Shown here one piece after another: positions 40,290 to 59,897 of a stretch of DNA of 64,000 nucleotides. How positions within the stretch are numbered: the stretch's first letter is position 1; every line of letters begins with the position of its first letter. Under the pieces are notes generated by a model, which saw only the letters and a list, made by a program, of their open reading frames with translations, did no database searches and was not told the DNA's origin. The stretch lies in assembly GCA_021018995.1 (NCBI GenBank), contig CM037590.1:84352097-84416096 (forward strand), in the 5' to 3' direction. A program made the position numbers and the translations under genes. Origin of the DNA: Chloranthus sessilifolius. Taxonomy: Eukaryota; Streptophyta; Magnoliopsida; Chloranthales; Chloranthaceae.

Positions 40290-41008
40290 TGTGCAACCGT
40301 AGAAATCGATACGATCCTCGTCGCGATGATGCGCTCTCTAACGATGAAAAATATAGAGTTGCCACCCGGAGCTTTCAGTGTCCCGGGATATCTAGTTCAT
40401 TTTTATGAGCGCCTAAGTGCTAAAAATATGACTCTGAATCCGGTCCACGCCAAAGGCTCTTGGGTAGGGGCTTCGGTTATCGATCGGGAAGGTGTTAGGC
40501 ACCCGATCAACCTGCTTAATGCTGTCTCTACTAATGGCCAAAAATAAAATGATGTAAAAGATAAGGAAATGGTTCCCTCTTGCCCAAATGGGCCTCCAGT
40601 CCTACTCCGTTCCTACCAAAAATTCAGCGGCGTAATGGCACAAATGAAAGAGTAGGGAATGCCAAAAAGAGATAGGAGAAGAAAGGGGAGAGCCGAAGCC
40701 CTCGGGCCCTTGTAGCACCATAGGAGAGCCTTGCGTGACTTGTTTTGATGAGCTCTTGAAGGCTTTGTATGGTGGAAAGTGGGGTTCTAACCTCTAAGGC
40801 TTGCTAACTAAGAGGTAGAGAGGGAAGGTGAATGGGTAACATATACCTAAACTAAGGGATCTAAGGTGAAAAATATTACTCAAAGGAGGTTTTAGAATTC
40901 TGAAATTTGTATGAGAAGTGTGCACTTAAGGGAGAAAGATCTTCTCACTTTAAGCTCTTTCTCTCTTAGGCCAAAATTCTCAACCCTTAAACCAAGGGGT
41001 GGGGGAAT

Positions 41009-41018
41009 CTATTTATAG
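41009..41018 (-). promoter_or_regulatory. TATA box of element D 3' LTR
   Basis: The - strand reads CTATAAATAG at the position equivalent to 58954-58963. Confidence 0.65.
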
Positions 41019-41278
41019 GAAAGGAGTGGAGTAGGAGGCTACTTAGATGCCAATTGGAGTTAGCAATTAGGTAATCTCAAATCTAAGGTTTCTTAGAATT
41101 TTGAGAGCTTGGAAAGGTGTGAAGGTGGTTTTAATGGTGGATGATGAGGTGAGACTTTAAGCCACTTGCAAGGTTGCAAATAGGTAAGGAATGGGTGCAA
41201 CAGAACTATCAAAACACACCCCAAAGGTTGAGGTGGTCAACAAGTCAAACCCAAAACACAAATTTCGAGGCAAATATA

Positions 41279-41512
41279 TGCAACTAATAGTTCTGTGCAA
41301 ATGCATCTACTGATAAAATAGTGAAACGATCTTTGGAAGTTAGCTCGCGAGGTGGGGGCCACCTTTTAAACTTTGCGCAACTATTAGTTATGTCAGGCTT
41401 AAAATTAGGGAGGATTGGTTGCGCCAGGCAAAATTTATACCTGGCACAACTATTAGTTAAGCCAGGCTATTTCTGGGGAGAAATACCTTGGCGCGACTAA
41501 TAGTCGCGCCAA
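41279..41512. repeat. Palindrome cluster 2 in element D 3' LTR
   Basis: Copies occur at 41279-41299 (worn), 41373-41397, 41417-41429 (one arm only), 41441-41466 and 41488-41512. The last has GCGCGACTA in its left arm and a matching TAGTCGCGC in its right arm, so the two arms changed together. Confidence 0.9.
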
Positions 41513-41913
41513 ATCCCTAGGGGGGGCACCTCGAAATTACCATCCTACCCTCCGGGTTAGGATTGTCACATCTTCCGATATATACCTCCGATTGGGGCGA
41601 TTCTTGGACCGTTGGAAAGCTGACAACCTCCACTCTTTAATGGTATAAGAGTTGGTCACTGTAGAGGGTCGTAGCTAGTTCTGGTGTGCCCCTCCTCCTT
41701 ATTGCCTGGGAAGGTTAGGTTAGGGTTTGAAAAGGGTTCTAAGGGTCGGGGTTGGTTTCTAAAGGTTCGGGGTAGGTTCCTGGGGGATGTAGGGTGATTT
41801 CTAAGGGTTTAGGGTGATTCTTAAGGATTCCATACATGCCATCAAAAGATCAAAAATGCGCCTCTCTCAAAATGTGTTTCGATCAGGCCTTGGGTCAAAT
41901 TTGGGTGTCTACA

Positions 41914-41926
41914 GATGCCCCTCTTT
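41914..41926 (-). other. Element D polypurine tract
   Basis: On the - strand AAAGAGGGGCATC sits directly before the 3' LTR start TGTAGACACC. This purine-rich tract is characteristic of Tat elements. Confidence 0.8.
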
Positions 41927-43782
41927 GGTATCCGATCACTAATGATCGAATGCCAAAGAAAAGAGACATTCGAAGAGGCCCAAGGCATCACTGACGGGTC
42001 TGCTGTATTCAGAACGAACTTCAAACATCGGATGAGTAACACGGTGAGAAAATGAGAGCCCTGGAGTTCCAGGCTAATCATTCGTTTCTCGAGGTAATCA
42101 GTTCCCAAGCGCTTAGTGACATTACTGGGCATAACCGAGGTGGAATGAGTTGCGAAAGCCCAATAGCTGGAAAAAATGTTCACCTCTCGAGATGTTTTGA
42201 AGGTGATTGATGTTCGAGATTCATTCTAAATGCAACAACTTCGTAAGTAAGAGGGGTGATCGACCCACATTCAAAGATAGGCACGAAGCAAACATACGCA
42301 AGGCTCCACAGTTTGCGTCCAATCCTACAAGGCATTCAACGACCTCATTGGATTATTCGCGGGTGCCCCTGCTAAAAGCAGGGTTCGAGATCTTTGGGTG
42401 AACCCATCGATCCCAAAGTTTATTTAGCATGACCACCTGAGCGAAGTGAATAGATGTCACAACGCTTTTTTAGGGGTGTGTGCCATTTTTCAAAACGTGC
42501 CTTAGATCCACATGACCCAGAGCGTCCAGCTTCAAATACCACTAAACAGATCCAACCAGTTATCGGGTGCTAACCCAAAAGGGACATCCAACCCTAGTTT
42601 CTGCCAACAATGATCATAAGCATCAATTAACTATGCATAAACATGCACCCATTAGGGGCAATAAGCAACAACAAAGGTGATGGAAGCCCCGACCCGGACC
42701 CGCCCGAGTACAATTTAGGAGGACAAACGACCATCATAAGGATACCCAGACGCATGGCGTACACTTTATAGGGATACTGCTGCCCATATAGGTTTTAAGC
42801 CTGTGAAAAATAAAAAGGGAAATGAACCCTTCTGAATGCATGGTTGCACATAGTTTGATTGACACATAATCTCATTCTTGATAGGTTGGTTTCAACCAAC
42901 AATTGACCTTTTTTTTTAATGGAGAATCTGAAGCTTAAGGCACTTAAGTTCACATGAGTCCAAGCGCTTGTCGCAAAGATTTAACAGTGGAGTCGACTCA
43001 ATCGAAACATTGGCTGTTTGACCGGGATCGACACCGTTGCTCCTACCTTAAAGCAGGATCCAAGGATCCGAGGCGAACCTCCGACTCAGGACTTTAATGT
43101 GGCACAGGTGCATTGCTGATAAAATATTAACGTTTTATCGCTTTATGCTTGTGCGTTGTGCAGGTTCAAATCTATTTTTGATTTTTCTATCATTTCTTGC
43201 AATTTTCTGAAATTTTCAACTGTTATTTTATGAGATTTTTTGAATTTTGAAGCTATTATCTTATGTGAATTTTTTGGATTTTTGGAGTTATTATTTTATG
43301 TGAATTTTTTGAATTTTGGAGTTATTATTTTATGTGAATTTTTGGAGTTATTATTTTATGTGAATTTTTGGATTTTTTTTTGGAGTTATTATTTTATGTG
43401 AATTTTTTGAATTTTGGAGTTATTATTTTATGTGAATTTTTGGATTTTTTTGGAGTTATTATTTTATGTGAATTTTTTGAATTTTGGAGTTATTATTTTA
43501 TGTGAATTTTTGGATTTTTTTGGAGTTGTCTTGTGAATATTTCCGGCTTCTCTGTGGGGATTATATTATATTATTTTATTTTCCTTGTGTGTAGGACCGG
43601 GGTGCTCGTTGTCCTCGGCCTGTCCTTATTTTAGCACGACTTCCTTGGCAAATCGAAGGATGACCGAAAAGCCGCCTTGGGAGCGCGTGCATCGGTTGGA
43701 AGTTACCGAACAAACAAACAAAAGGAAGTGGGGGACCGGTCTTCCCATCTGGCCCGTACCAGGCCTAAGACCCGGCCTGAGT
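41927..43782. other. Element D non-coding region between 3' LTR and PMD gene promoter
   Basis: No gene is seen. It holds the AT-rich tandem repeat and then palindrome cluster 3. Confidence 0.6.
43222..43528. repeat. AT-rich tandem repeat (units of about 25-36 bp) in D
   Basis: Around nine units of TTATTTTATGTGAATTTTT with variable GGATTTTTTTGGAG or GAATTTTGGAG endings. It lies in the 3' non-coding part of D. Confidence 0.9.
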
Positions 43783-43906
43783 GCCTGGCGTAACTATTAG
43801 TTGCGGCTAGCCAATATGGGCCCAAGAACAGCCTGGCGTAACTATTAGTTGCGCCAAGCTAAAGGGAGGCAAACATTTGCCTGGCGCAACTATTAGTTGC
43901 GCCAGG
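43783..43906. repeat. Palindrome cluster 3, upstream of the antisense PMD gene of D
   Basis: Three copies lie at 43783-43805, 43832-43859 and 43880-43906, spaced 49 and 48 bases. The last ends 11 bases before a TATTTAAA box. Confidence 0.95.
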
Positions 43907-43916
43907 TTTGGCTGGG

Positions 43917-43924
43917 TATTTAAA
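43917..43924 (+). promoter_or_regulatory. TATA-like box for antisense PMD gene of D
   Basis: TATTTAAA lies 11 bases after palindrome cluster 3 and about 190 bases before the 5'-UTR splice donor. The following sequence (43930-44114) is C/T-rich, like a plant 5' UTR. Confidence 0.5.
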
Positions 43925-44294
43925 ACAGCCCGAACTCGGGCAGTGGGGTCTCATTTCGAATTCTTCCCCCTCTCTTCCTCTTTGAAATCGAAAACCGCTC
44001 CCCCTCCCCCTAGGGTTCCTTTACGTTGCCTTTAGCGTGCCCATTGCCGTTGTTTTGCTTGCGGATCGATCGTGGGCCTACGCTAGACAAAGCAACCCCC
44101 TTTTTCTTCATAAGGTAATCTTTTAAACTCTTTTTTCTTGATTTTTCTTGCTTTTTGTTATGCAAATATGATCATGATCTTGCATTTCTAGATGAAGAAT
44201 AGTTTTTTTTTGTTGTAGGCATATTGGTTAATGATGTGTGAATGATTTTTTTTTATGAACAATGCCTTCTTCTTTTCTTTTTTTGATTTTATGC

Positions 44295-44296
<2 letters not shown>

Positions 44297-44347
<51 letters not shown>
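44297..44347. repeat. (TA)n microsatellite
   Basis: About 25 uninterrupted TA units. Confidence 0.98.
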
Positions 44348-44350
<3 letters not shown>

Positions 44351-44704
44351 AATAATAATTTTTTGTTTTTATTTGTGCCTAGAAAAGGGGTTTTATTTAT
44401 GTTATTTTTTTGTTTTTTATCTCAAAGCAAGGATTTTATACATCCTTTTTGACAACTAGTTTAGAAAAAGGGAATTTCTAATGATTTTTGGTTTCTATAT
44501 ATTGAAAACTAATTAAGGAGAAAGTGTTTTTTTTTTCTTTATATTTCTCTTAACATTAAAAAGGATTTTGCTTTTTTTTTGAAAAGTATCTAAGGTATTG
44601 ATTTATATATATGTAATATTTTTTTGTTTTAGTTTTTTTTTTGTAAAAGAAGGATTTTTTTGGTCACAAAAGGAGGATTTTTTTTGGTGTTTGTTTTTTT
44701 TTTC

Positions 44705-44708
<4 letters not shown>

Positions 44709-44754
<46 letters not shown>
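44709..44754. repeat. (TA)n microsatellite
   Basis: About 23 uninterrupted TA units. Confidence 0.98.
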
Positions 44755-44757
<3 letters not shown>

Positions 44758-45462
44758 TGCAAGAAGGATTCTTTTTTTTCTTGATTTTATGGTCCATGAA
44801 GAAAAGGATTCTTTTTTTGTTTTTTTGTTTCCTGATTTTAGAGGTATAAGGAAAGGATTTTTTGTTTTTATGATTTTAGGAGCGTAAAATGAAGGACTTT
44901 TTTTTTTAGTTTTTCTAAACAGAAAGAAAGATTTTTTTTTGTTTCCTATTTTATAAAGAAAGGATTTTTTTGTTTTTTTTTTTTCTAAACAGTAGGAAAG
45001 ACCTTTTTTTTTTTTTTTATGATTTTCGAGGTATAAAGTGAAGGACTTCTTTTTTTTTTTTTTTTTTCTAAACAGAAAGAAAGAGATTTTTTTTTTTTTC
45101 CCTAGACATAAAGGGAGGATTTCTTTTTCTAAGTGTAAAAGAAGGGCCTTTTCTTTTTTTCTTTTTGGAGTGATAAAAGAACGATTTTATTTGCTTCTAA
45201 CTTGTTTTATTTTCAAAGGTAGGAAGGGAAAATTTTATTTATTATCTTTTTCTGAAGAAAAGATTTTTTTTTTTGCATTTTCAGCCTAAAACGGGATTTT
45301 TTTGTTATAGTTTTTTTTTTGGATGTGTATCTCTCATTTTTTTTTTAAAAATATGTTAAAAAAAAGGGGGAAGGTGAGGATACTTACCTCCCTTTTTGCA
45401 GCATAGGATATCATGGCTTTTTATCATTGATCTGTTCTGACGTGATTGCTTTGTTGCCCCAG

Positions 45463-47898
45463 CATGTCGAGCGGTGATGAGCACGTTCCCGAGGAGGAAC
45501 ACGAGGAGGGGCCCGAGATAGTGTACAATCCGCGAGGAGAGTAGTTCCTCTGGGTGGAGCGGAGAGCGGGCCCATGGCTCGAGATGCAGGGTGAGGCTGC
45601 CCGGGTCGGCCTCCTCCATCAGCAGCACACTCATCTCCAATTTCGGAATAGCGGGCAAGGTAAAAGATAGGTTCAGTTTCTTTCCTTTGCACAGTTTTTT
45701 CTTTACCTCTGCTATCTGATGTGTATTTTATTGTATTTTTTTTTTTGGGTACAGGAGCTGCCCAACTTTGTGTTCCGCGGGGGGTGGCTCGACTTCCATG
45801 AGTTCTACCTTTATGTCCCCCCCCCGTGGTGAAAGTTTTGTTGGAGCAGGTGGGCTTCGAGGAGTTCTTGTCCTGCCCTCCCATGAGGGTGGATGCCGCC
45901 TATCTAAAGGCCCTTATTGAGTGGTTTGGTCCCGAGACCATGACGTTCCACATGCCGTATGCCAAGCTGACGCTGACGCCCGTTGATTGGGCCATGATTG
46001 CTGGCATTAGGATTGGCGGAGTCCCGATATCCACCTTGGCGGTACCGAGCCGAGAGGACATCATTCGGTTGATCGGGGCCTATCCTCCTCGTGGGCAGAC
46101 CCATGGCACAGAGGTCAAGATGTCCTGGCTGACCTCTTTTTTCTGCTGACGAGTTGGTGGACCTGGGCCAGTCAGATCGGGTGCTTTACATCACGCCAGA
46201 GTGGGCGATTGTTCTAGCTCGCATCACCCTCCTACTCCTGCTGGGCAAGACCCTTTTTACAAATGCCAGTGGGGGATGGGTCAGCCTGGCCCTATTGAGT
46301 GTGATGGATAATTGGGGCGATGTTCCCAGGCATGACTGGGGAGGGGTGGGATACGCCTGGCTGATGTACAACTTATCCCAGGTCACGACCAGGGACTCGA
46401 AGTTTGCCATGGGATTTTGGGCCGTTTGGGAGGTAATTCCTCACCCCTTCACTTTTGTTACTGCTATCATCTACTCATCATTTTTCTTTTCTGACTGATC
46501 CATTTATATTACTGACATGCTCTCGTGCCATGCCCCTTTTTCAGGTATGGGGATACCACCACTTTCACCCTGGGCGCCCGCTCCTTTTCACGGAGGTGCT
46601 CACCTATCCCCTCCTCAGCAACTGGCATTAGGCCCGACGCCATGACGTGGGCCTAAAGCACCTGGAAATGGGCCTAAGGTACAAGCTTGATTTGATGGTG
46701 CCTGAGCAGGTGATAACCTTTGTTCACTTTCAGCTTGGGCATTTCTTTTGATTGAGGTGTTGCTTACTTGGTCCCTCTTGCTTTTTGATTTTGAGCAGAT
46801 CCTCCCCGATCTTTACCGACATCCCCCTTCTGGGACTGAGCAACCGTGGGTGCCTCCCGCCTATTCAACAATCGCCGCGTCGTCTTCTTTTATGGAGCGT
46901 GGGCCAAATGCTACTATTTGGGGGAGAGGGTGGTGCATCAGTTCCAGGGCTACTATGCCATACCCGTGGACCCACCGGTTGACGTTTGGAGTCCTGCTGG
47001 CAGTATTGAGGAGTTGACAGCAGCCTTTTTCAACAATGGGTTCCCCATTCGCGCTCTCCATGTGCCTGGGGATTATCATGCTTGGTACGAGTGCCTCCCC
47101 TACCGATTCATCTTGCCGCATTTTGTCCCTAGCGCTAATTTCCTTGCGTTCGGGGGCCCACTTGGTCAGGTAACTTCTTCTCAGCTCGGATTAATTTCTC
47201 TTTCGCTTTTACTTGGCCTGAGTCTTATCTGAATAGATCCTTGTCTGGTTCACAGTTTGCTCCGGGAGATGGTTCAGATGATGAAGGTGGGACGAGTGCT
47301 GCTGACATGTTAGGGGTAGATCCCTCTAGTGCTGGTCCTTCTGGTGCGGGTCCCTCGGGCGAGGGTTCGTCAAGTGCTGGTCCGTCGGGTACCTCTCAGG
47401 CGGGTGTCCCTGGTGGGGGTCCATCTGTAGCTTATGGGACCTTTCGGTGTCTTGACGATGGCTTCCTCTCAGATCTCTGTGCCGACGTGGACCAACAGGC
47501 ACGGCTCTCTGCCGAGGTGGCCCATGTTCCTCCTCCTGAGGTGGTCCCTGGGGTGAGTTTTCAGATGAGCCACTTCTTCTTTATTTTGGTTTCCTTAGGT
47601 ACATGCTTTCAGGGGTGTTCTAACAATTGAATATTGTATCGTTGGACTTCGACTCGGCTATGGAATATGCGGAGTACCATCGTCATCTGGCAGAGCTTCG
47701 GGAGGTGGAGACGGTGAGTACCTGGCTGCTCAACTCCTCTCTTTTTCTCATTTCTTTTTTTTCATTATCATTGGCCCCTGGACTGATCTTATCCTTGACT
47801 GTGCCTTGCAGCGTGCCCGGGCTAAGGAGTCGTGTTCCCTGCTGAGTAGGATTTTGCAGGTGTGGTCAAGAAGTCCAAGGGAGCGAGCAAGGAATAGG
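45463..47898 (+). pseudogene. Antisense gene 1 of element D: multi-exon plant mobile domain (PMD) gene
   Basis: Coding exons with GT...AG borders: 45463-45659 (ATG 45464, MSSGDEHVPEEEHEEG), 45755-46432, 46545-46709, 46799-47169, 47256-47552, 47613-47713 (acceptor uncertain) and 47812-47898 (stop TAG). Exon 2 holds the PMD start: LKALIEWFGPETMTFHMPYA, KLTLTPVDWAMIAGIRIGGV, then LALLSVMDNWGDVPRHDWGG. The 165-bp exon 3 reads VWGYHHFHPGRPLLF. Exon 4 reads FFYGAWAKCYYLGERVVHQF and AIPVDPP. Exon 5 is Gly/Ser/Pro-rich. Breaks: TAG 45541-45543, a shift in the C run near 45825, a shift in the T run near 46140, and TAG in exon 3 at the second Trp of NWHW. PMD proteins in plants (MAIN, MAIL1) act in gene and transposon silencing; this copy's role is unknown. 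Confidence 0.8.
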
Positions 47899-48340
47899 CT
47901 ATTAGTTTCCTTCATTATTTTTTTGGATTTTATTTTGGGATCTATTTTTTAAACAATTTGGAGAATGGTTGGTGTGGTACTTTTGGAAACAAATTTGATT
48001 TTTTTATAATTATTTGGGAAATGGTCTTGCTTTGATTTTATGCTTTGCTTGCTTGGCATCAAATCTGTTTCTCTGCAGGATGTGCCTGCTCCATGCCTTT
48101 TTAGAAAGTGGCCTTTTGGGTCGCATGCCTCAATGTAGGATCAATCCTCAAGTAGGTCTGAGACGGCTGTAGAGGGGGGCCTTTTGGGTCGCATGCATCA
48201 GTGTAGGATCAATCCTGCACATAATAAAACATTTCACAAGTCATTGATGGTCGGAAGTGCCGACATATATAAAATCAACAAAAAGGACAGAAGTCCCCTC
48301 TTCAGTTCGGTCTTGAGATGGCTGTAGAGGGGGGTTTTAG
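47899..48340. other. Spacer between the two antisense genes of D
   Basis: This is non-coding. A TGGGTCGCATGC block followed by GTAGGATCAATCCT is duplicated near 48117 and 48187. Confidence 0.6.
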
Positions 48341-48529
48341 TCTGGCGCAACTATTAGTTGCGCCAGGCTAAAGTGCCAAATAAATTTCACTAGCGCAACT
48401 AATAGTTACGCCAGGCCAAAATGGGGGTGTAATGCACTGGCGCAGCTATTAGTTGCGCCAGACCAAAATAGTTGCACCAGACCAAAATGGGGACAACAAT
48501 GTGTTGGCGCAACTATTAGTTGTGCCAGG
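48341..48529. repeat. Palindrome cluster 4, upstream of the DUF7745-like gene of D
   Basis: Copies lie at 48341-48368, 48389-48416, 48436-48463 and 48504-48529, plus a half site at 48468-48482. Spacing of the first three is 48 and 47 bases. Confidence 0.95.
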
Positions 48530-48551
48530 TTTGGCCTGCGAACAGTGGGGC

Positions 48552-48559
48552 CTTATATG
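48552..48559 (+). promoter_or_regulatory. TATA-like box for DUF7745-like gene of D
   Basis: CTTATATG lies 23 bases after palindrome cluster 4 and about 135 bases before the ATG at 48695. Confidence 0.4.
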
Positions 48560-48694
48560 CCCGAATTGACCTAGAAATGGTTTCTTTTTTGTTTGACTTG
48601 GCACTTTTGATCGTCATCTTTAGCTCTTGTTTCTCCAAGACGGGTCCATCTTCCTACATTGATTCTTATCTTCCCAAAAGATCCTTGTACGTTC

Positions 48695-50194
48695 ATGGAT
48701 CCGCCTCCTAACCCTTCCTTACGTGGAGGGATCCGGAGCCAATGTATCCCCTTTGTCGGGCTTGGGGCCCACGTTCTTGGCGGCTTGGTTTGGGAGTCTG
48801 AACGAGAGTGAGCTCGCCGACTTGGGGCGCCTTGGGCTATCTCGCCTTCCTTCCTTCTTAGAGATTCCTCTTCAGTGGGAGCTCCTTCATGTCGCCGCTT
48901 CGTGCTGGGATGTGAACCTCCATCTATTCTGTTTTGGGAAGCGGGAGCTGACCCCAACCCTTGAGGAGCTATCCAATCTGTTTGGCCTGAAGCTTCATAG
49001 GGACCTTGCAAGAGTTATGCCTAGGCCCGGGTATTCCAGATCCGTTCACCTTACTCTCGGTTTAAAGAAATCCGAATATGAGAAAAGCCTCGTCAGGGGG
49101 CCCACAAGGTGTTCGTTGAAATTCCTCAAAGAACTTTTCGGTGATGAAAGCCTCCGAAGATTGCCAGTTAGGAGTGTCTTTAACGTGAAAGCTCTAGCAC
49201 TTGGCCTCATCTTTGAAATCCTCTTCTACACTGGGGGAGAGAGCTTCTCATTGGTAGTTTGTGATATTTTGATGGAATTGGAGGCGGGCCGGTCCATGAT
49301 GCATTTGGTGCTTGTCGAGCTGTACCGATGCCTTGATTCTTTTGCCTTGGGCAAAGTGGAGGGCCTTCGGGGATGCCCCTTATTGCTCTAGGTCTGGCTG
49401 GGTGAGCATTTTGCCATTTTGGGGCCCGTGCCTCGCTTCTATGTTGCTTGAGGCGAAGTGGCCCACTGTTTTTTGGTAGATGCCACTTACTCCCCCAGGG
49501 TGATACATCGGCTCTGAAACTTTGGTTGGTCGATGCTGAGCTGACATGGAGGCTTCCTTGGTTGGATCGGACCTTCCCAGTGATTCGTTCTAGAGACCAT
49601 GAGTGTATCACCCTCCTAGGACTAACCGGCAGCACCTTCTACTTCCCATTCCAGGTGTTGCGTCAGTTTGGCTACCCTCAGCAGGTGCCTTGTGAGGCCA
49701 GACCCCCTTTATGTGATTTGATCTTTTCTAGGGGATCCTCTGGAGACATAGACCGGATTGTTGCTCTTTGGGAGACGCGACAGTCGACCCTGATGTGTGA
49801 TTTTGAGCAGGGAGACTCAGTTAGAACTTCTCCTGAGTATGAGGCCTGGCTATTGACTGAACGGCCTACCGCCGATGGCCCGAATTTGTTAGAGAGCATT
49901 GAGACTGGAGGCCCCTGGCCAAAGAAAGAAGCGGCTCTCCGAACCCGTATCCAGCTATTGGTGGATGAGAAGAGGGTCCTGCAAGATCTCTTGGCATGCG
50001 AGAGGGTTAGAGTAGACGCAGTGGAAAGTGAGGTTCTCTGTTTGAAGGAATCACTGAGCGTTGCTTTTGGAGCCGCCGACTCTTCTCAGAAGAGGTTCAA
50101 GAGCCTGCATGGTCATTGGCTGACTGAGAGGAATGTCTGAGAGGATGATCTTTATGCTGAGATTAACACTTTGAAGCGCGAGTTGGGCCGTTGA
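48695..50194 (+). pseudogene. Antisense gene 2 of element D: DUF7745-like protein with coiled coil
   Basis: ATG at 48695 begins MDPPPNPSLR; a +1 shift at 48722 leads to the main frame (48723-49391): ELADLGRLGLSRLPSFLEIP, CWDVNLHLFCFGKRELTPTL, EELSNLFGLKLHRDL and VFNVKALALGLIFEILFY, then GGESFSLVVCDILMELEAG and RCLDSFALGKVEGLRGCPLL. This is the pattern of the plant DUF7745 family (TPTLEE-xx-LLG, then a hydrophobic ALAxYGLIIFP-like segment, then RGCxQLLxVWL). TAG at 49390 replaces Gln or Trp. A frame shift leads to 49448-50140 (LTGSTFYFPFQVLRQFGYPQ) and a coiled-coil end (LLVDEKRVLQDLLACERVRV), finishing TLKRELGR near 50194. The role is unknown. Cluster 4 and a TTATAT box (48553-48558) precede it. 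Confidence 0.7.
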
Positions 50195-51659
50195 CTCCTT
50201 CCTGCACACAGAACTTTTTACACAGATCATATACACAGAAAAAAGGGGCGTAGAAAACCCCTTTACAGATACACACATTTTTGGTATACATATATATGTA
50301 TTTTTTATTATTTTTATTTTTGTTTTTTATTTTTTGGTTTTTTTGTTTTTTCTATACTTGTAAAAAGGAAAACACGCCAGTCATCACACCGGCTTTTTTT
50401 TTAGATGTAGTGCAAGTGATACAAAAGGCAGTTACATACATCTATACAGATCTATTTTTTTGTTTATGTATTATATCCTCTTTCTTCTTTCTTCTTTTTT
50501 TTTTCTTCTCTTCTTTTTTTTTGTGCCTTAATCATTGGGTGATATTTTGAGAAACCTTGGGTCCACCTTTGAGCATGGTCGACCCCCCCTTTTTTGGAGT
50601 CGGACCTGGATGAGTTTTCGAATTTGCCAAGGCCGGAATATTGATCCCTTTAAATTGAGTTAAACCTTTCTCCTTGCCTTGGGTCATACGTTCGACGCTG
50701 CGGGTTTCACCAAGACAATTCTGGTCGGGACCTGATTTGAACTAGCATGAGCGGCCCCCCCAAAAAAATAAGGGGACAGGGGTAGTAACCAAGGGGGCTC
50801 TTCAATAATTTTTATCAGTCCAAACCTTTCCTTTTTCTATTTTTTTTTCTCTTTTTTTTTTATCTCCCTTTTTTTTTTACCCGTGGTGCCCTTTCGAGTT
50901 TTCATCACGTCCATGGGTTTAGCTCTCTTACCCCAAGCGCCCTTTCAGGTTTTCACCTGGTCTGTACAAGCTCGCTATTTTTACCCGTAGCGCCCTTTCA
51001 GGTTTTCACCACGTCCATCTTGCTTTGAGCTTGTATTTTTATTTTATTTTTTATTCTTTTTATTTTTTCAAGAGCCACAACATAGACGTCGATTCCATCA
51101 TAGCCGGCTGGATGGGGTTCTGGTGTCATACGACTCGGCTCATGTTGACTTAACAGATATTATGACTGCTTACGAACCTACAAAGAGGGCTTCCTTCAGG
51201 GTGTAGCTTGGCCATGGGTTAGGTTAGGATTTGAAGGTATGCTAGGCTAAAAGGGTTTCCTTGATACGACTTCAGTTTTCTCAACATACTTTCTTCCTTA
51301 GGGATTTTTACTGTACATGCCCCGTGATTCTTCTACACATTTTTTATTCTTTTTGCTTCATTTCAGGCAATCTCTTTTTGAGGTTTTACTTTTTTCGATT
51401 TTTTTTTAAATTTTGATAGTGACTCTACTTTATTTTTTTTTCTCTTTTTTTGGTATATGTACCTGTGTATAAATATTTTTTTTGGGGGGAATGGGTTTAT
51501 TGAAAGAAAGGCCTAGGCTCAAATGGGGTAGCAAAGGATATCATCATTTTTAGGGATGTTTTTGGGCTACTATGCTTGGAATGATGGCCTCTTTTGGGTG
51601 GTTCTTGAGCAGTCACGTATCTGTTTCACCAATACTTACCTTATCGCGATAGACTAAGA
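50195..51659. other. Non-coding spacer between integrase and antisense DUF7745-like gene of D
   Basis: T-rich sequence lies between two convergent genes (integrase on -, DUF7745-like on +). It contains the tandem repeat at 50879-51021 and long T runs (50460-50525, 50840-50880, 51400-51490). No coding sequence is seen. Confidence 0.6.
50879..51021. repeat. Tandem repeat, about three units of roughly 60 bp
   Basis: Each unit holds a variant of ACCCGTAGCGCCCTTTCAGG followed by TTTTCACCACGTCCAT and a variable part. Confidence 0.75.
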
Positions 51660-52989
51660 GTAGAACCTTCGGACGTATCCAGCGTTGATGGGCTCAGGAA
51701 GATGATCTTCGTCCATGGTGGTGAGGCGGATGGCGTATCCTAGTAATACTTCTCGAATAATGTTTGGTCCTTCCCAGTTCGCTTAAACTTTCCTCTCGGA
51801 TCAGCGTGGAGGGATGGGAAGATCTTCTTCAGCACAGTGTCTCCTACCTTTAGATCTCGACTGCGAACAAGTTTATTGTAAGCACGTGCGATTCACCCCT
51901 GGTAAACTTGGGTATGGCATAAGGGTAGGAGTCTCTTTTCGTCTAATAAGTTTAATTAATCAAAGCGTGATCTCTCTCTTTCTGCTTTGGGTAAGCCTGA
52001 TTCCATGAGAATTCGAAGTGAGGGTACTTCAACCTCTACTGGGAGGACAGCCTCAGTTCCATACACAAGGGAGAATGGTGTTGCCCCTGTAGCGGTACGG
52101 ATCGACGTTCGGTAGGCCCACAAAGCAAATGGCAGCATTTCGCTCCAATCTCGATAAGTGGCGACCATTTTTTCAAGTATGCGGACGACTGTCTTATTCG
52201 TGGCTTTCACGGCTCCATTAGTTTGAGGCCGGTAGGGGGATGAGCGATGGTGCTTGATCTTGTATTGCTCGCAGAAGTCTTGGATGCGCTTATTCGCAAA
52301 GTTTGTGCCGTTATCCATGATGATATCCTTGGGTACTCCAAATCGGCACACAATATTATTCTTGAGAAACTTCTCGACGTGACTGGTAGTGATGTTGGCA
52401 GATGATGCCGCTTCTACCCACTTGGTGAAGTATTCAATGGCGACGAGGATGAACCGATGTCCGTTTGATGCTTTTGGATTAATCATTTCGACAACGTCAA
52501 GGCCCCAGGTAGCAAATGGCCAAGGAGTGGTCATGCAGTGAAGATCAATGGCAGGAGCGTGTATCAGACTGGAGTGTTCCTGACACTTATAGCATTTTTG
52601 AACATGTTTGCAATAATCTGACTCCATAGTGGTCCAAAAGTATCCTTGCTGTAGAATTTTCTTGGCGAGCATGTGACCGCTGATGTGGGCTCCGCATACT
52701 CCCTCATGGGTTTCTTTCATAATATTGACCGCTTCACTTTCAGTAAGGCACCTGAGTAAGATGTTATTGTATGATCGCTTGTAGAGGCATCCCCCGCAAA
52801 TGACGTAACCCACCGCTAAACGTTGAATGGTTCATCGGTCTGTCTTAGATGTACCCTCTGGGAAAGTTAGGATCTCGAGAAAATTCTTGATATCTGAGAA
52901 CCAAGGTGGCTCATCATAAGGCTTTGTAGGTTCCTCAATCTGGAGGCAGAAGGTTGGCTCATTCCTCTACTCGATCACGATCGGCTTCA
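51660..52989 (-). pseudogene. Element D integrase, catalytic Glu replaced by Lys
   Basis: The zinc finger is intact (IMKETHEGVCGAHISGHMLA and HVQKCYKCQEHSS). The catalytic core has LDVVEMINPK and IIMDNGTNFANK for the two Asp residues. The third motif reads TNGAVKATNKTVVRILEKM, with Lys where the DDE Glu belongs (GAA to AAA, a G-to-A change). Next come ALWAYRTSIRTATGATPFSL and KVGDTVLKKIFPSLH (about 51830). TAA and TGA near 51955 and 51895 again replace Gln and Arg. A single-base loss near 51780 shifts the last part. Confidence 0.88.
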
Positions 52990-53512
52990 TCTCAACACCA
53001 TTAGGGATTTCAATCATTGACGCCAAAGTTGCTAATAAGTCGGCAAAGCGATTCCTTATCCGGGGGACGTATGAGAAAGTCACATCTTGGAAGCAAGCTA
53101 TCAGATCCTCAAGGTGTTCATGATAGGGGATCAGTTTCTCATCTTTCGTCTTCTAGTCACCATTTGTCTGACATATGATTAACTGGGAATCGCCGAATAC
53201 TCGAAGGTGAGTTATATTCAGATCGAGAGCCGCCTGTAGACCAGCAGCGCAAGCCTCGTACTCAGCCATATTGTTAGTACAAGGAAAGTTGAGTTTGATA
53301 GAGACCGGTACATGGGATCTCTTCGGTGAAATTAGGATGGTGCCAACTCCTTGGCCCTTGACATTTGCTGCCCTGTCAAAGTGCATTACCCATGATTCTT
53401 CTGCTTTTTCTATAACGTCTTCCGTCATGAACAAGATATCTTCATCTGGGAATTCGGTTCTTAACGGCTCATAGTCAGGTAAAGGATTGTCGGCAAGATG
53501 ATCAGCAAGCGC
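52990..53512 (-). pseudogene. Element D archaeal-type RNase H
   Basis: This second RNase H, in the same frame as RT, reads WVMHFDRAANVKGQGVGTIL, NNMAEYEACAAGLQAALDL, LRVFGDSQLIICQTNGD and RFADLLATLASM. The first catalytic region is FDRAAN where FDGA-N is expected. TAG codons at about 53510 and 53153-53155 stand where relatives have Gln (GQALADHLA) and Trp (GDWKTKDEKL). This domain is diagnostic of the Tat lineage. Confidence 0.85.
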
Positions 53513-55343
53513 CTACCCCTTGATCAATTTCTGAGTGATGTACGTGATGTCGAATTCAAATAATAAACGTTGCCATCGTGCGATTCGTCCAGTGAGAGCT
53601 GGCTTTTCAAATAGGTATTTTAATGGATCCATTCGGGCTAAGAGTAGAACGGCCTGGGATAGCAAATAATGGCGGAGCCTTTGAGTAGCCCATACAAGAG
53701 CCAGGCACGCTTTCTCTAGATGGGAGTAGTGCGTCTCATAATCAGTAAACTTCTTGCTCAGATAGTAAATGGCCTGCTCTCTTCTTCCCGTTTCATCGTG
53801 CTTCCCCAAGACGCATCCCATCAAAACTTCCGTCGTGGAGAGATACATCAAGAGTGGTCTCCCTGGCTCAGGTGGTACCAAAACAAGTGGATTAAGGAGG
53901 TAGCTTTTAATTTTTTTGAACGCTGCCTGACAATCGTCGTTCCATTCAACGGGCGAATTCTTCCTTAATAATTTGAAGATCGACGTGCAGATTGGAGTTA
54001 GTTGTGTAATGAACTGACTGATATACTGTATTCTACCCAGAAATCCTCTAACCTCTTTCTCGGTAGAGGGCGATGGAATTTCAGTGATGGCTTTGAATTT
54101 GATTGGGTCGACCTCGATCCCCCTACTACTGACGATGAATCCCAACAGTTTCCCGGACATAGCACTGAACGCGCACTTCTGTGGATTTAAATGTAGTCGA
54201 TACTTTCTCAACCTTTCAAACAGCTTCTGAAGGTTTACCAGATGGTCACTTTGCTCCTGTGACTTGGCTATCATGTCATCGACATACACTTTAATCTCTC
54301 GGTGCATAATGTCATGAAATAGTGCAGTCATAGCTCTCTGGTACGTTGCACTGGTATTCTTCAGCCCGAATGGCATGACTCGATAGCAAAAGGTTCCCTA
54401 GGGGGTAATGAACACTATCTTCTTACAATCAACCTCTGCCATTTTTATCTGATTATATCCTGAGAGTCCATCCATAAAAGAAAGCATCCCGTGCTTAGTT
54501 GTGTTATCAACCAAGATGACGATGTGTGGTAATGGGAAATCGTCCTTTGGGCTCGCTCTGTTCAAATTGCGGAAATCGATGCACATGTGGACCTTTCCAT
54601 CCTTCTTCGATACAGGCACAATATTGGCTAGCCACTGCGGGTATTTGGATACCATGAGAAACCCTGCATTATATTGCTTGATGACCTCATCTTTGACTTT
54701 TAACATCCACTCGGGTCGGAGACGTCTCAACTTCTGCTTGACTGGCTTCATATCAGGGTAGAGGGGCAACTCATGCTCAACCAAATCAGTATCTAGACCA
54801 GGCATGTCCTCATATGACCAGGCAAAAATGCCTTGGTATGACCGAAGGAAGTCGATCATGCTCTTTCTTTCCTCAGGAGACAGTGATGTTCCGATTTTGG
54901 ATATCCTGGGAACCTCCTCAGTTCCTAGATTGACGTCTTTTGTCTCTTCAACAATGGGGGTAGGGCCGTGCTCAAAGTCGGCAAATTGGTCAAGGAGCTC
55001 ATCGGGGAGCTCCTCGAAGGAGACATCCTCGTCCAGACTCGTGATCCCTACCTCTTCTTGTATTTCTACAGGGAAGGGGTCGATTTCACGTGGGACGGGT
55101 ATTTTGATTAAGGCATCCTTTTGTGGGACCTTTTTTGGAATTTTAAATGACAATATTTTTAGACTTTGGATTTTTTCAATATTTTTAGGATTTTTGTTTT
55201 CTTCCATGTTTTTGAGATTTTTGTTTTCTTCAGAGACGGACCCTTGGCTAGGCGGATTTGTGTATATACAAGGTACTGCCTGCCAAGGGCTTATCTCACT
55301 TTTTATAGGTTGTGTTTTTTGGGAAACAAGTGCCAAACTTTAG
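53447..55343 (-). pseudogene. Element D reverse transcriptase and RNase H
   Basis: The frame opens at 55336 and includes FAWSYEDMPGLDTDLVEHEL, MKPVKQKLRRLRPEWMLKVK, IDFRNLNRASPKDDFPLPHI and MDGLSGYNQIKMAE. TAG at 54398-54400 replaces the Trp of the family motif P-W-G-T. It then runs in the same frame through MPFGLKNTSATYQRAMTALF and the intact KVYVDDMIAKSQEQ (catalytic YVDD). RNase H: PLLMYLSTTEVLMGCVLG, EKACLALVWATQRLRHYLL and LLARMDPLKYLFEKPALTGR. Apart from Trp/Gln-to-stop changes the frame is open. Confidence 0.9.
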
Positions 55344-55849
55344 GCCACTTCCTGCTTCTAGAGTTTAAGGCAAAGATGCCTAGTTGTGTACCTGAGGGGC
55401 CGCTTCTTTACCTGTTGGGATGGAGGGTGCTGACTGATATGACTCATTGGAGTCAGCCTCCATCATGTTGATCCCCATTTCGTCTGAGATCATGTCCTCA
55501 AATGATAACTCAGTTTTGTGGTAATTCACCACAGGGGGGGTTTGTTCAAATATCGACCGTTGTTCCTCAAAAAGGGATAACGCAACCAAGTCTATCTCCA
55601 AGCTGGGAAGGGAGATCTGGGGATTGGTGGGATGGACTGGGGCTATGGGTTTGTGTGGGGTCAAATGGGTTGCCCCATTTTAATCGATCTTTACGACCCC
55701 TGCATTGATAAAGGAATCCCTGATGTGCGGCCTAGGGCGAGGTTTCTCTTCTATATTGATTCCTTGAGCTTTTGCAGCCGCGACGACCCTGGCTTTCTCT
55801 TTGGCCTCTCGAACCTCTTCTTCTGTGGGCTTGTATCCTAGCCCGAATC
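55344..55849 (-). pseudogene. Element D protease-RT linker
   Basis: The linker continues from the G-patch after a frame change near 55850-55930: FGLGYKPTEEEVREAKEKAR, then PRPRPHIRDSFINAGVVKID, then (55664-55380) TPHKPIAPVHPTNPQISLPS and an acidic stretch DMISDEMGINMMEADSNES. Element B has a related but much longer linker. It is probably structural; the frame breaks suggest a pseudogene. Confidence 0.6.
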
Positions 55850-57013
55850 TTACTTTCTGTCCCTTATCGCAACTGGCTCTCTTCTGCCTTGTAGTTTGGG
55901 TCCCAGACCCCTTCCTTTCTGATAGCCCCACTTTTGGAGCATTGCCACTGCCATTACCATACCACCTCCCATTTTAGACATGATGCCCTCAATGGGTTCT
56001 GAGAGTATTGCCGACACCTCGTACTCGAAACTATGGAGGTCGACGTCCTCAGCGGTGTGTGGTATATCCAGCATGTTGGGTTTCTCCACACTGTTGGTGG
56101 CCTTCTCTTTCTCACTGTGCCATTCTCCAATGATCGTGATAATCTTATGCCCAGATATAAATTTGAGTTTCTGGTGTAATGTGGAAGGTATGGCTCCGAC
56201 TTCATGTAGCCACGGGCGCCCTAACAACAGATTAAATGAGGATTTGATATCCATGACTTGAAACAAGATGGAAAAGATCATTGGCCCTATCAATAGCTCA
56301 AGATCAACTTCTCCCATTATTTCTCTCCTGGTATTGTCAAACCCTCTAGCGCTGGTTCTGGTGGGCCTTAACATGCACGGATCAATCTCGATCTTGGTGG
56401 CAGTTCTCAATGGGCATATATTCAATGCAGACCCATTATCGATTAGTACCAAGGGGATAATCATATTTTCGGACTCAATGGTTATATTCAAAGATTTTGA
56501 GTGGCTACCTCCTTCCTCAGGTAAATCGGCGTATGAAAATAAAATGGCATTTGGAGCCATCACTTGACCAATTATCTGTCGGACTTCGTTTGGGCTAACT
56601 TGGAGTGATACATGTGCATTTTTTAATGCCCCCATTAATGCTTGAAAATTGAGTGGGGACGTCATTAACAGATCCCATACAGTGATATGGGCAGGCATTC
56701 TTCTCAGCTGAGTCTCCAGTATATGTTCTTGACACATCTTCTCAAACGGATTCAAAGTGCTCTCTTTCTTTCCTTCGGGTTGGGCCTGTGCTGCTACCGG
56801 TGCTTCGGGCTGCTTCGATATTCTCCCTGACCTGGTAACAAAATCTACTGCCCCTTCTCTACTACTGCTTCCGGCATTGATATCTGTCTGTGCATAGCTT
56901 AGCGGGACCTGATGAGGATCATATGTGGGTCTCGAGAGCTGGAAGGGTATGGCTGCCGGTTCTTGAGGAACTTGTACTGTCGTCTCAGGAGGTGTGGGCA
57001 ATACTTGATTCAC
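55850..57013 (-). CDS. Element D gag-protease linker, aspartic protease and G-patch
   Basis: The 387-residue open frame starts MNQVLPTPPETTVQVPQEPA. It carries VDFVTRSGRISKQPE (about residues 56-70) and MPAHITVWDLLMTSP, the linker that follows the zinc knuckle in Tat elements. The protease core VLIDNGSALNICPL (near 56430) has the usual Tat D-N-G triplet, followed by FNLLLGRPWLHEVGAIPSTL. Near the end LQKWGYQKGRGLGPKLQGR is a clear G-patch. The frame is uninterrupted. The gag capsid and zinc knuckle that should precede it are missing, replaced upstream by palindrome cluster 5. Confidence 0.85.
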   Translation of the reverse strand: MNQVLPTPPETTVQVPQEPAAIPFQLSRPTYDPHQVPLSYAQTDINAGSSSREGAVDFVTRSGRISKQPEAPVAAQAQPEGKKESTLNPFEKMCQEHILETQLRRMPAHITVWDLLMTSPLNFQALMGALKNAHVSLQVSPNEVRQIIGQVMAPNAILFSYADLPEEGGSHSKSLNITIESENMIIPLVLIDNGSALNICPLRTATKIEIDPCMLRPTRTSARGFDNTRREIMGEVDLELLIGPMIFSILFQVMDIKSSFNLLLGRPWLHEVGAIPSTLHQKLKFISGHKIITIIGEWHSEKEKATNSVEKPNMLDIPHTAEDVDLHSFEYEVSAILSEPIEGIMSKMGGGMVMAVAMLQKWGYQKGRGLGPKLQGRREPVAIRDRK

Positions 57014-57077
57014 CTCAGTGACTGTGGGTTGGGTGGAAAGATTGGGCCAAATGGGGGTGGTGGAGCTGCTAAACAGA

Positions 57078-57247
57078 CCTGGCGCAACTAATACTTGCGC
57101 CTAGGTTGCAGGGGAGGACTTTTACACTGGCGTAACTATTAGTTGCGCCAAGGTAAAAGTTGAGAGTTTAAAGCTGGCGCAACTATTAGTTGCGCCAGTT
57201 ATAAAATCCAGTGTTTTTACACTGGCACAACTAATACATGCACCAGG
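57078..57247. repeat. Palindrome cluster 5, upstream of the protease-pol frame of D
   Basis: Four copies at 57078-57105, 57126-57153, 57174-57198 and 57221-57247 are spaced 48, 48 and 47 bases. They lie where the gag core would be expected. Confidence 0.95.
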
Positions 57248-58205
57248 CAAAAACTGCCTCTCCAGAACAGAAAGCAGCAGCCACTAATGTCAGAAATGAG
57301 TCTCTTTTTGGTTATTTTTTTGTGGAAGTTAGGCTTCCGGGAACTGAGCTATTTTATGGTGATCGATTATCTCCTTACCGCACCTACAGGATTGAGTCCG
57401 GTATAACTCGCTAGCGCACCCCCTAAGGGTTTTAAGCTTCAGAATGGGAACCCACCCGATATACCTCCGGCGCAAGCGCCTTCTCAGATTCTAAGTGGGC
57501 TGGGACTTTTCTGGATCATCACCACTAGGGGCTTCCGCCATACTAAGACCCGGGTGTTTGTATGTGTGCTTAAACCAACCCTTTTGAAAAATCTACCCCG
57601 CAAAACAAATTAATTAAGCTCCCTAACTTGGTTCAATTTTAATTTTTTTCAAAGCTTTTCTCTTTTTTTGGAAGTTTTCTTTAGTTCAAAGACTAGGGGT
57701 GATTATCCCGTGCCGCCACTACGGGCAGGCATCCACTGTTAGGATATGAATAATAAAAAAGACGGGGCCAGTCAAGCGACTAGGCGGGAAATATAAAGTG
57801 CTGAAATTTAAAAGGTGCCAGTCAAGTGACTAGGAAAAAGTTGCTGAAATTTAAAGCGGAAATGTAGGGGTGAGTAAAAGAAAGGTGCCAGTCAAGAGAC
57901 TAGGCAAAAATTGCTAAAATTTAAAGCGGAATCGTAGGGGTGAGTAAAAAATTCCAGTCAAATGACTAGGCAAAGATTGCTAAAATTTAAAGCGGAATCG
58001 TAGGGGTGAGTAAAAAAAGGTGACAGTCAAGTGACTAGGCAAAGATTGCTGAAATTTAAAGCGGAATCATAGGGGTGAGTAAAATGACGTAATCGGAGGG
58101 GTGAGTGATAAAAAAATAGCAAAAATAATAAAAAAATAGCAATAAAATGTTAGAAAAATAAATAAATAAAAAAGGCCTAGTTCAAGGGGAAGCTCTACTA
58201 GCTAA
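57248..58205. other. Element D leader, non-coding
   Basis: No gag-like frame is seen on either strand. Apart from the tandem repeat the sequence is unremarkable. Confidence 0.6.
57768..58085. repeat. Tandem repeat (about 66-bp unit) in D's leader next to the primer site
   Basis: About five units contain GCCAGTCAAGTGACTAGGCAA, split by small changes, then TTGCTGAAATTTAAAGCGG, then GTAGGGGTGAGTAAAA. The array ends about 120 bases from the primer binding site, in the leader of the - strand transcript. Confidence 0.85.
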
Positions 58206-58223
58206 TCCCTAGCAGAGTCGCCA
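58206..58223 (-). other. Element D primer binding site
   Basis: On the - strand, two bases after the LTR, the sequence reads TGGCGACTCTGCTAGGGA. It begins with TGG, the complement of tRNA CCA, and matches the kind of site used in Tat/Ogre elements (probably a tRNA-Arg; I cannot verify the isoacceptor). Confidence 0.75.
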
Positions 58224-58953
58224 TCTGTGCAACCGTAGGAATCGATACGATCCCCGTCACGACGATGCGCTCTCTAACGATGAAAAATATAGAGTCGCCA
58301 CCCGGAGCTTTCGGTGTCTCGGGATACCTAGTTCATTTTTATGAGCACCTAAGTGCTAAAAATATGACTCTGAATCTGGTCCCCACCAAAGGCTCTTGGG
58401 TAGGGGCTTCGGTTATCGATCGTGAAGGTGTTAGGCACCCGATCAACCTGCTTAACGCAGTCTCTACTAATAGCCAAAAATAAAATGATGTAAAAGACAA
58501 GAAAATGGTTCCCTCTTGCCCAAATGGGCCTCCAATCCTATTTGTGCCCCTTCGTTCCTACCGAAAATTCAACGGCATAACGGCACAAATGAAAGAGTAG
58601 GGAATGCCAAAAAGAGATAGGAGAAGAAAGGGAAGAGCTGGAGCCCTCGGGCCCTTGTAGCACTGTAGGAGAGCCTTGCGTGGCTTACTTTGATGAGCTC
58701 TTGAAGGCTTTGTATGGTGGAAAGTGGGGTTCTAACCTCTAAGGCTTGCTAACTAAGAGGTAGAGAGGGAAGGTGAATGGGTAGCATATGCCTAAACTAA
58801 GGGATCTAAGGTGAAAAATATTACTCAAAGGAGGTTTTAGAATTCTAAAATTTGTATGGGAAGTGTGCACCAAAGGGAGAAAGATCTTCTCACTTTAAGC
58901 TCTTTCCCTCTTAGGCCAAAATTCTCAATCCTTAAACCAAGGGGCGGGGGGCT

Positions 58954-58963
58954 CTATTTATAG
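58954..58963 (-). promoter_or_regulatory. TATA box of element D 5' LTR
   Basis: The - strand reads CTATAAATAG, a canonical plant TATA box, about 280 bases downstream of the palindrome cluster. Confidence 0.7.
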
Positions 58964-59242
58964 GAAAGGAGTGGATTAGGAGGCTACTTAGATGCCAATT
59001 GGAGTTAGCAATTAGATAATCTCAAATCTAAGGTTTCCTAGGATTTTGAGAGCTTGAAAAGGTGTGAAGGTGGTTCTAATGGTGGATGATGGGGTGAGGC
59101 TTTAAGCCACTTTGAGGGTTGCAAATAGGTAAGGAATGGGTGCAACAGAACTATCAAAACATACCCCAAAGGTTGAGGTGGTCAACAAGTCAAACCCTAA
59201 ACACGAATTTCGAGGCAAAAACTCATTGTTACTATTCATATG

Positions 59243-59498
59243 CTTGGCGCAACTAATAGTTGCACTAGGGAAATGCACAGTAAAATAGTGAGGAACAGTG
59301 CTGGAAGTTAGCTCGCGGGGTGGGGGCCACCTTTTAAACTTGGCGCAACTATTAGTTGCTCCAGGCTTAAAATTAGGGAGGATTGGCCTGGTGCAACTAA
59401 TAGTTGCGCCAGGCAAAATTTATACCTAGCGCAACTATTAGTTGCGCCAGGCCATTTCTGGGGAGAAATAGCCTGGCGCAACTAATAGTCACGCCAAA
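59243..59498. repeat. Palindrome cluster 1 in element D 5' LTR
   Basis: Five copies of the palindrome with arms TGGCGCAACTA and TAGTTGCGCCA lie at 59243-59269, 59339-59365, 59387-59413, 59425-59451 and 59472-59498. The central base is A or T. The last four are 38-48 bases apart. Confidence 0.95.
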
Positions 59499-59897
59499 TC
59501 CCTGGGGGGGCACCTCAAAATTACCCTCCTACCCTCCGGGTTCGGATTGTCACATCTTTCGATATATACCTCTTATTGGGGCGATTCTTAGACCGTTGGA
59601 AAGCTGATGACCTCCACTCTTCAATGGTATAAGAGTTGGTTGCTGTAGAGGGTCGTAGCCAGTTTTGGTGTGCCCCTCCTCCTTATTACCTAGGAAGGTC
59701 AGGTTAGGGTTTAAAAAGGGTTCTAAGGATCGGGGTTGGTTTCTAAAGGTTCGAGGTAGGTTCCTGGGGGATCTAGGGTGATTTCTAAGGGTTTAGGATG
59801 ATTCCTAAGGATTCTATACATGCCATCAAAAGCTCAAAAATGCGCCTCTCTTGAAATGTGTTTCGATCAGGCCTTGGGCCAAATTTTGGTGTCTACA

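Follow-up and report, generated by a model that had tools for sequence, protein, structure and literature searches.

In a 64,000-nucleotide stretch of the Chloranthus sessilifolius genome (GenBank assembly GCA_021018995.1, contig CM037590.1, positions 84,352,097 to 84,416,096; hereafter the window), a long terminal repeat (LTR) retrotransposon, element D, carries a 23-bp palindrome in five clusters, which lie in the U3 part of both LTRs, before two antisense genes of the plant mobile domain (PMD) family, and in the 5' leader. The analysis established the motif, the selection on it, its placement, and its switch to a different sequence in two related promoters. The clusters are probably site arrays of a co-evolving, dimeric, sequence-specific DNA-binding regulator; from these observations we infer protein binding, activation rather than repression, and the identity of the factor.

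The palindrome is composed of two 11-bp half-sites (arm TGGCGCAACTA) around a single central A or T. With up to three mismatches, 17 palindromes were found in the window, all from 41442 to 59496, and none in 100 dinucleotide shuffles. With up to four mismatches, 19 were found in five clusters (3, 3, 4, 4, and 5 palindromes), all within element D, in agreement with the count of about 20 in the first-pass annotation of this DNA. The central base was A or T in all 19, and the sole place in the window outside these clusters at up to seven mismatches was 31925. The element and its clusters are as follows.

40290..59897, minus strand: element D, LTR retrotransposon, with target-site duplication ATGGG at 40285-40289 and 59898-59902
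59245..59496, unstranded: U3 cluster of the 5' LTR, five palindromes at 59245, 59341, 59389, 59427, and 59474
57080..57245, unstranded: leader (G) cluster, four palindromes in 47-48 bp steps, the copy at 57223 being a hybrid of two half-site types
48343..48527, unstranded: D cluster, four palindromes in steps of 48, 47, and 67 bp, with TTATAT at 48553 (plus strand)
43786..43904, unstranded: P cluster, three palindromes in 48-bp steps, with TATTTAAA at 43917 (plus strand)
41373..41511, unstranded: U3 cluster of the 3' LTR, three palindromes at 41373, 41442, and 41489, with decayed remnants near 41287 and 41416

Within the clusters of the window, 10 of the 14 steps measured 47-48 bp; such steps prevailed in the D, P, and leader clusters, and the U3 steps were mixed (38, 46-48, 69-70, and 96 bp). 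On the strand of the antisense genes, TTATAT begins 25 bases past the last D palindrome and TATTTAAA begins 12 bases past the last P palindrome, which slightly corrects the distances of 23 and 11 bases given earlier. The TATA box CTATAAATAG at about 58962 (minus strand, the pol strand) lies 283 bases past the U3 cluster of the 5' LTR. It had also been claimed that the clusters match in motif but not in spacers. This held for the inner spacers of different clusters, whose likeness was within the shuffle range (419/1000), but not for the inner spacers of the same cluster, which were more alike than shuffles (2/1000), nor for whole spacers, which were alike both within and between clusters (0/1000 shuffles) because the 5-6 bases adjoining the motif are common. 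From the likeness of inner spacers within but not between clusters, we conclude that each array expanded through duplications in place, with the motif retained. The CpG observed/expected ratio was 0.61-0.71 in the clusters versus 0.64 in element D, and the CpG-island character of Sirevirus RM boxes was not found. A palindrome longer than 23 bp was rejected, as flank pairing was close to the column-composition expectation, and a promoter sequence common to the clusters beyond the motif was rejected, as local alignment scores were within the shuffle range; despite these scores, D and P share CAGTGGGG further downstream. As a separate observation, the U3 inter-palindrome spacer (GGCCATTTCT GGGG AGAAATAGCC; 59450-59473 and 41465-41488) forms an inverted repeat of its own, so that the two adjacent palindromes could fold as one long RNA hairpin.

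Across the 32 contigs of the host assembly (2.17 Gb), the exact 23-mer was located at 8,967 places and its reversed control at 0. Parts of element D aligned with all of the first 15 genome loci, which represent 12 distinct places on contig C1: the LTR with ten, P with one, and the leader with one. In the prokaryote and virus collections, there were 0 exact 23-mers in viral_contigs and 0 exact 21-mers in genome_contigs; a 19-bp match in one viral contig was taken as chance. A query with the D promoter (40 of 3,090 candidates scored) returned 30 loci, the window itself included. At least three palindromes were present in 29/29 relatives at the D cluster, with exactly four in 26, a result that is partly by construction since the query held the cluster. 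The P cluster and the left U3 were fetched by distance alone: at least one palindrome was present in 20/20 relatives at P (three in 13), and a palindrome array was present in 4/4 relatives at the left U3. The clusters are thus not missing from the family members examined, the outcome that the first-pass annotation had named as damaging to its proposal. Twenty stretches were fetched at the expected place of the right LTR; two proved to be U3 (L078 and L081), one was the leader cluster (L073), and 17 had no palindrome. These 17 are no evidence of loss, because the distance was guessed from the gag-less copy in the window. The number of U3 palindromes differed among relatives, and low counts are uncertain as some extracted pieces were short. 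In three of the P relatives (L048, L051, and L054), a deletion ends inside palindromes, as expected of strand slippage or template switching between repeats.

The cluster at 57080-57245 had been taken for a promoter of the protease-pol frame. Its position ahead of that frame is due solely to the absence of gag in this copy, and the TATA-like patterns scanned gave no box just downstream in the sense direction. Inspection by eye of the frames between the LTR and the protease of element D revealed no gag. In three relatives (L092, L093, and L086), the pro-pol homology to element D ends at window 57067. A gag match (E 8.5e-10) was obtained in L080, an element with the homology break at 57067; it was the sole element with a gag match, and the other long frames scanned in relatives gave no gag. 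Beyond the gag of the L080 element, the leader (L094) was 90.8% identical to window 57032-57936 and carried four palindromes in steps of 48, 47, and 48 bp, and a different element (L073) was 90.1% identical to window 57032-57414 with the same palindrome spacing. The leader cluster was present in L094, L073, and L008. This homology beyond gag in a relative indicates that the fifth cluster belongs to a 5' leader upstream of a gag that is absent from element D. At the gag-loss junction (57032-57067), the pol-side matches of the three relatives reach 57067 and the L094 and L073 leaders start at 57032, an overlap of about 36 bases.

Selection on the motif was assessed against the spacers at A/T sites, which are the cleanest test because cytosine deamination leaves A/T alone; columns under 12 letters were excluded from the A/T and G/C tests. 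The motif varied six times less than the spacers at A/T sites, the minority frequency being 0.0114 in the motif (69 sites) versus 0.0697 in the spacers (61 sites; 0/20,000 permutations). The test was also significant singly for D (p 0.003) and P (p 0.0005), and the flanks gave 0.040 (D) and 0.074 (P). The comparison of motif against spacer proposed in the first-pass annotation therefore came out in its favour at A/T sites. At non-CpG sites of the D alignment, the frequency was 0.066 in the motif versus 0.129 in the spacers (13/10,000 permutations). The distance to the TATA-like box was 25 bp in 28/30 D sequences and constant in 11/14 measurable P sequences (of 21). Between the LTRs of the window, the motif changed at 16/98 sites, the cluster spacers at 23/148, and the pair overall at 127/1,621; the motif was thus unprotected after insertion, and selection would have acted on source elements. 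We also observed that CAGTGG and the TATA-like box past the D array (48528-48640 and L018-L046) are about as conserved as the palindromes.

A genome search with PF24924, the DUF7745 profile, gave 117 matches (118 of 4,408 candidates scored), and the upstream 361 bases were examined for three of them, chosen among plus-strand high scorers. The L097 promoter carries three copies of the standard motif in 48-bp steps. The L096 promoter carries two copies of TGGCGCATGTA-N-TACATGCGCCA (2 and 1 mismatches), 47 bp apart, and the L095 promoter carries two copies of TAGCGTGTATA-N-TATACACGCTA (2 and 0 mismatches), also 47 bp apart. A dyad pair like those of L095, L096, and L097 occurred in 0/2,000 shuffles for each. 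In the window D promoter and in all three of these promoters, CAGTGG stands 12-16 bases past the last palindrome and a TATA-like box 24-26 bases past it. L096 and L097 align to the D promoter, and L095 gave just a weak 18-base match. The sequence is thus altered in both arms and both copies, with length, odd centre, spacing, and place retained. The L095 and L096 promoters may belong to sister subfamilies of the same element kind.

In the proposed mechanism, the palindrome would be a dimer site, with two 11-bp half-sites around one A/T base and sites mostly repeated in 47-48 bp steps. The arrays would mark the LTR promoter and both antisense PMD-family promoters, with a fourth array in the 5' leader, and the putative factor would most likely activate or de-silence the marked promoters jointly. 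The factor would co-evolve with its site, given that the half-site of other DUF7745-gene families differs in each arm and in all copies seen. A private factor of this kind would most likely be encoded by the element itself, with the PMD/DUF7745 proteins as obvious candidates; since these come from two of the marked promoters, the circuit would be autoregulatory. A bolder form of this proposal, which we hold tentatively and with rather less than even confidence, is a Ty3/gypsy family with its own VANC- or Tas-like circuit, in which dimers of the antisense PMD/DUF7745 proteins would bind private palindromes in the LTR, leader, and antisense promoters and activate or de-silence only their own kind, with subfamilies switching protein and palindrome together.

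The first-pass annotation had left open whether the sites bind a protein or form hairpins, and a function as RNA, with tandem hairpins serving dimerisation, packaging, or export, or with double-stranded RNA feeding small-RNA silencing, has several points in its favour. The expected genomic RNA includes every cluster, folding of the U3 cluster is far stronger than that of shuffles (z -14), the switched motifs remain symmetric, an inherited paired change is present at one site, and maize Sirevirus LTR palindromes are described as small-RNA hot spots (excerpts of PMC5311732 and PMC10760457). The z-score is, however, not independent evidence, because any palindrome array folds. In a survey of copies (246 of 258 kept, with 12 seed copies and loci L001, L004, L007, L012, L017, and L091 excluded), the central base was A or T in 245/246, and C was seen in one excluded seed (L016). 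The innermost positions of the palindrome were near-invariant, and positions in methylatable contexts changed most. C>T and G>A changes, scored on the strand of the genomic RNA, were unbiased (85 vs 76, p = 0.53). Symmetric double changes numbered 18 vs 9.99 expected, and 7 of the 18 were pair-7 changes confined to a single U3 site (in the left LTR of the window and in L078, L081, and L087-L090); without this site, 11 were seen vs about 9.7 expected. Hence the paired change noticed earlier is confirmed, and six relative stretches show it at the matching U3 position, but it does not reflect repeated compensation, which was rejected as every pair-7 double change was at this one site, and the suggested search for paired arm changes gave no excess elsewhere. 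We read the paired change at 41489 as ancestral, a single inherited event; the window right LTR differs from the paired-change copy by two CpG-to-CpA changes. A hybrid palindrome with mismatched arms (a standard half and a TACATG-type half) was kept at the last leader site (window 57223, L008:1548, L073:2412, and L094:482), which suits a dimer that would read half-sites rather than a paired stem, and two clusters stand at a near-fixed distance before TATA-like boxes of the opposite strand. An RNA hairpin as the main function was therefore rejected on the central-base, strand-bias, and symmetry counts, and an RNA role of any of these kinds appears improbable. Protein binding is favoured over the hairpin by the A/T centre, the absence of strand bias, the hybrids, and the whole-motif switches. 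The initial proposal of one selected site for promoters on both strands is supported by the A/T-site conservation, the near-fixed TATA distance, and the presence in the relatives examined, and of its two options the protein-binding one would be preferred.

A protein reading the palindromes could also be a host transcription factor, in which case the element would only make use of a programme of its host, for example a stress response. The element depends on host transcription, and Sirevirus boxes, which share this layout, resemble host factor sites in PLACE (PMC2829016). Switching of the whole motif among DUF7745-gene promoters of one genome is harder for a single fixed factor, and among the literature matches listed for the palindrome letters there was none beyond a 10-base half-site string. 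A review table lists one NAC-bound fragment that contains the half-site string, a lead that was taken as chance. We consider a host factor somewhat unlikely, though it is the nearest competitor of an element-encoded one. Functionless tandem-repeat turnover or short gene conversion might instead spread and homogenise the motif, and the variable copy number, the deletions between copies, and the residual likeness of inner spacers within clusters would be expected from it. Under such turnover the spacers should homogenise too, yet they differ six-fold from the motif at A/T sites; the palindromes also keep their positions among the relatives examined, and the TATA distances are near-fixed. This explanation is very improbable.

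Several observations weigh against an array of sites for a co-evolving regulator. At G/C sites, motif and spacer were not significantly different (pooled p = 0.105), which we read as post-insertion decay of methylated cytosines. The motif is not uniquely conserved in the D alignment, as the downstream stretch with the TATA-like box gave 0.072, about the same as the motif at non-CpG sites. At P, the non-CpG difference was marginal (motif 0.088, spacer 0.137, upstream 0.172, downstream 0.154; 489/10,000). The U3 cluster is far from its TATA box, unlike D and P. The switch was seen in 2/3 promoters examined, among the 117 DUF7745 matches listed, and L095 has no convincing DNA likeness to the D promoter beyond layout. 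The switched arms still pair with each other, and such symmetry is also expected under a hairpin. Finally, the link between PMD proteins and the 'DOWN' promoter motif in Arabidopsis is correlative (excerpts of PMC7156037 and PMC9899485). Weighing these points, we still regard a co-evolving DNA-binding regulator as the probable explanation.

The remaining features of element D are as follows.

51956..57100, minus strand: protease (G-patch), reverse transcriptase, RNase H, second RNase H, and integrase pieces, from domain matches and reading frames
48663..50140, plus strand: antisense gene 2, DUF7745/PMD, in two open pieces (48663-49391 and 49406-50140)
45802..46149, plus strand: antisense gene 1, PMD piece (PF10536, E 7.5e-9)

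The LTRs span 40290-41913 (1,624 bp) and 58226-59897 (1,672 bp) with ends TGT...ACA, and their Kimura two-parameter (K2P) divergence of 0.084 indicates that this copy is old. On the minus strand, RT_RNaseH was matched in 53513-54397, RVT_3 in 53153-53512, and rve in 51956-52831; this order, with reverse transcriptase-RNase H followed by a second RNase H and an integrase downstream, is that of Tat-type elements and fits a Ty3/gypsy Tat-type lineage. The frame of antisense gene 1 is interrupted downstream, where introns and decay are indistinguishable. Both pieces of antisense gene 2 gave matches to PF24924 and PF10536 that fell below the curated cut-offs. The antisense pieces scanned in element D matched PMD/DUF7745 alone, and neither the TRP28 domain of Retand elements nor VANC (DUF1985) was found in them. 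The two antisense proteins gave E 0.021 when compared with each other, and no likeness is claimed. As a protein query, the DUF7745 piece gave zero matches at E <= 0.001 among 1,711 candidates, and the second piece gave zero at E <= 1 against PDB sequences. The ratio of nonsynonymous to synonymous polymorphism (pN/pS) in the first piece was 0.381 in frame vs 0.795 and 0.922 out of frame (30 sequences), and that in the second piece was 0.456 vs 0.862 and 0.888 (24 sequences; 6 loci without match). This shows that the DUF7745 gene is under purifying selection, and its low in-frame ratio means that the product was selected. A protein search of the genome yielded 150 scored matches among 11,502 candidates, indicating that the family is large. 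Two kinds of simple repeat were also seen: T-rich tandem repeats of about 34 bp with two long TA runs flank the P cluster in the region from the 3' LTR to the PMD gene (43177-43554 and 44298-44754), and a repeat of about 70 bp stands in four tandem copies in the 5' leader adjoining the LTR (57807-58084).

Among known systems, the Sirevirus palindromic boxes are family-specific, lie in the LTR upstream of the TATA box, and precede ENV in 77/79 linker copies, and they have been called Sirevirus-specific (PMC2829016, Bousios et al. 2010). Element D resembles them in carrying many copies of a family-specific palindrome upstream of the LTR TATA box, with further copies ahead of an accessory gene. 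Sireviruses are Ty1/copia elements whose boxes have a CGG-CCG core (with one exception in PMC2829016), whereas element D is a Ty3/gypsy element and its motif has no CGG..CCG. Element D further differs in its 23-bp motif with GGCG..CGCC arms, the mostly 47-48 bp steps, the measured selection against spacers, and the extra arrays before the antisense PMD-family genes and in the leader.

VANDALs are DNA transposons. In Arabidopsis, the short repeated motifs bound by their VANC proteins vary from one VANDAL family to another (excerpts of PMC5735166 and PMC10398659). Like the palindrome of element D, these targets are element-specific noncoding repeated motifs that grow by tandem duplication; here, noncoding tandem repeats are present, and the motif switch seen in 2/3 of the DUF7745-gene promoters examined may correspond to the difference between VANDAL families. 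Unlike the palindrome, the VANC target YAGTATTAY is short and in one orientation, and binding by an element protein is shown there but predicted here. Retand and other plant gypsy elements share with element D the antisense open reading frames between pol and the 3' LTR, gag-less members, a dual RNase H, PMD, and a G-patch, and Retand elements also hold tandem arrays; their antisense frames are mainly TRP28, and a promoter palindrome does not appear in the excerpts of these reports (PMC11963269 and PMC9289625). PMD has been noted in plant gypsy elements and was the most frequent atypical domain in one survey of them (excerpt of PMC9289625), and PMD genes of tea give phased small RNAs (excerpt of PMC10673657). 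The foamy virus Tas protein offers a circuit analogy alone: one element-encoded activator serves the LTR and an internal promoter, in an animal retrovirus and with an unrelated protein (excerpts of PMC8670036 and PMC4929722). The Arabidopsis proteins MAIN and MAIL1, of the PMD family, are likewise tied to a promoter DNA motif, 'DOWN', through their mutants; they are host proteins with another motif (CATGCAGTTT in MORC1), and the evidence is indirect (excerpts of PMC7156037 and PMC9899485).

The palindrome provides a directly testable candidate ligand for PMD/DUF7745 proteins. If these proteins bind it, plant retrotransposons would possess a self-specific activation or anti-silencing system distinct from VANC, and, if so, there would be a mechanistic origin for the host PMD proteins involved in transposon silencing. 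Among the open-access literature matches listed, none described this palindrome, nor did any describe palindromes at promoters of Ty3/gypsy elements that bear PMD. Taken together, the array type is best read as known in outline from Sireviruses and VANDALs, with the element class, the link to the PMD family, and the signs of target switching as what is new.

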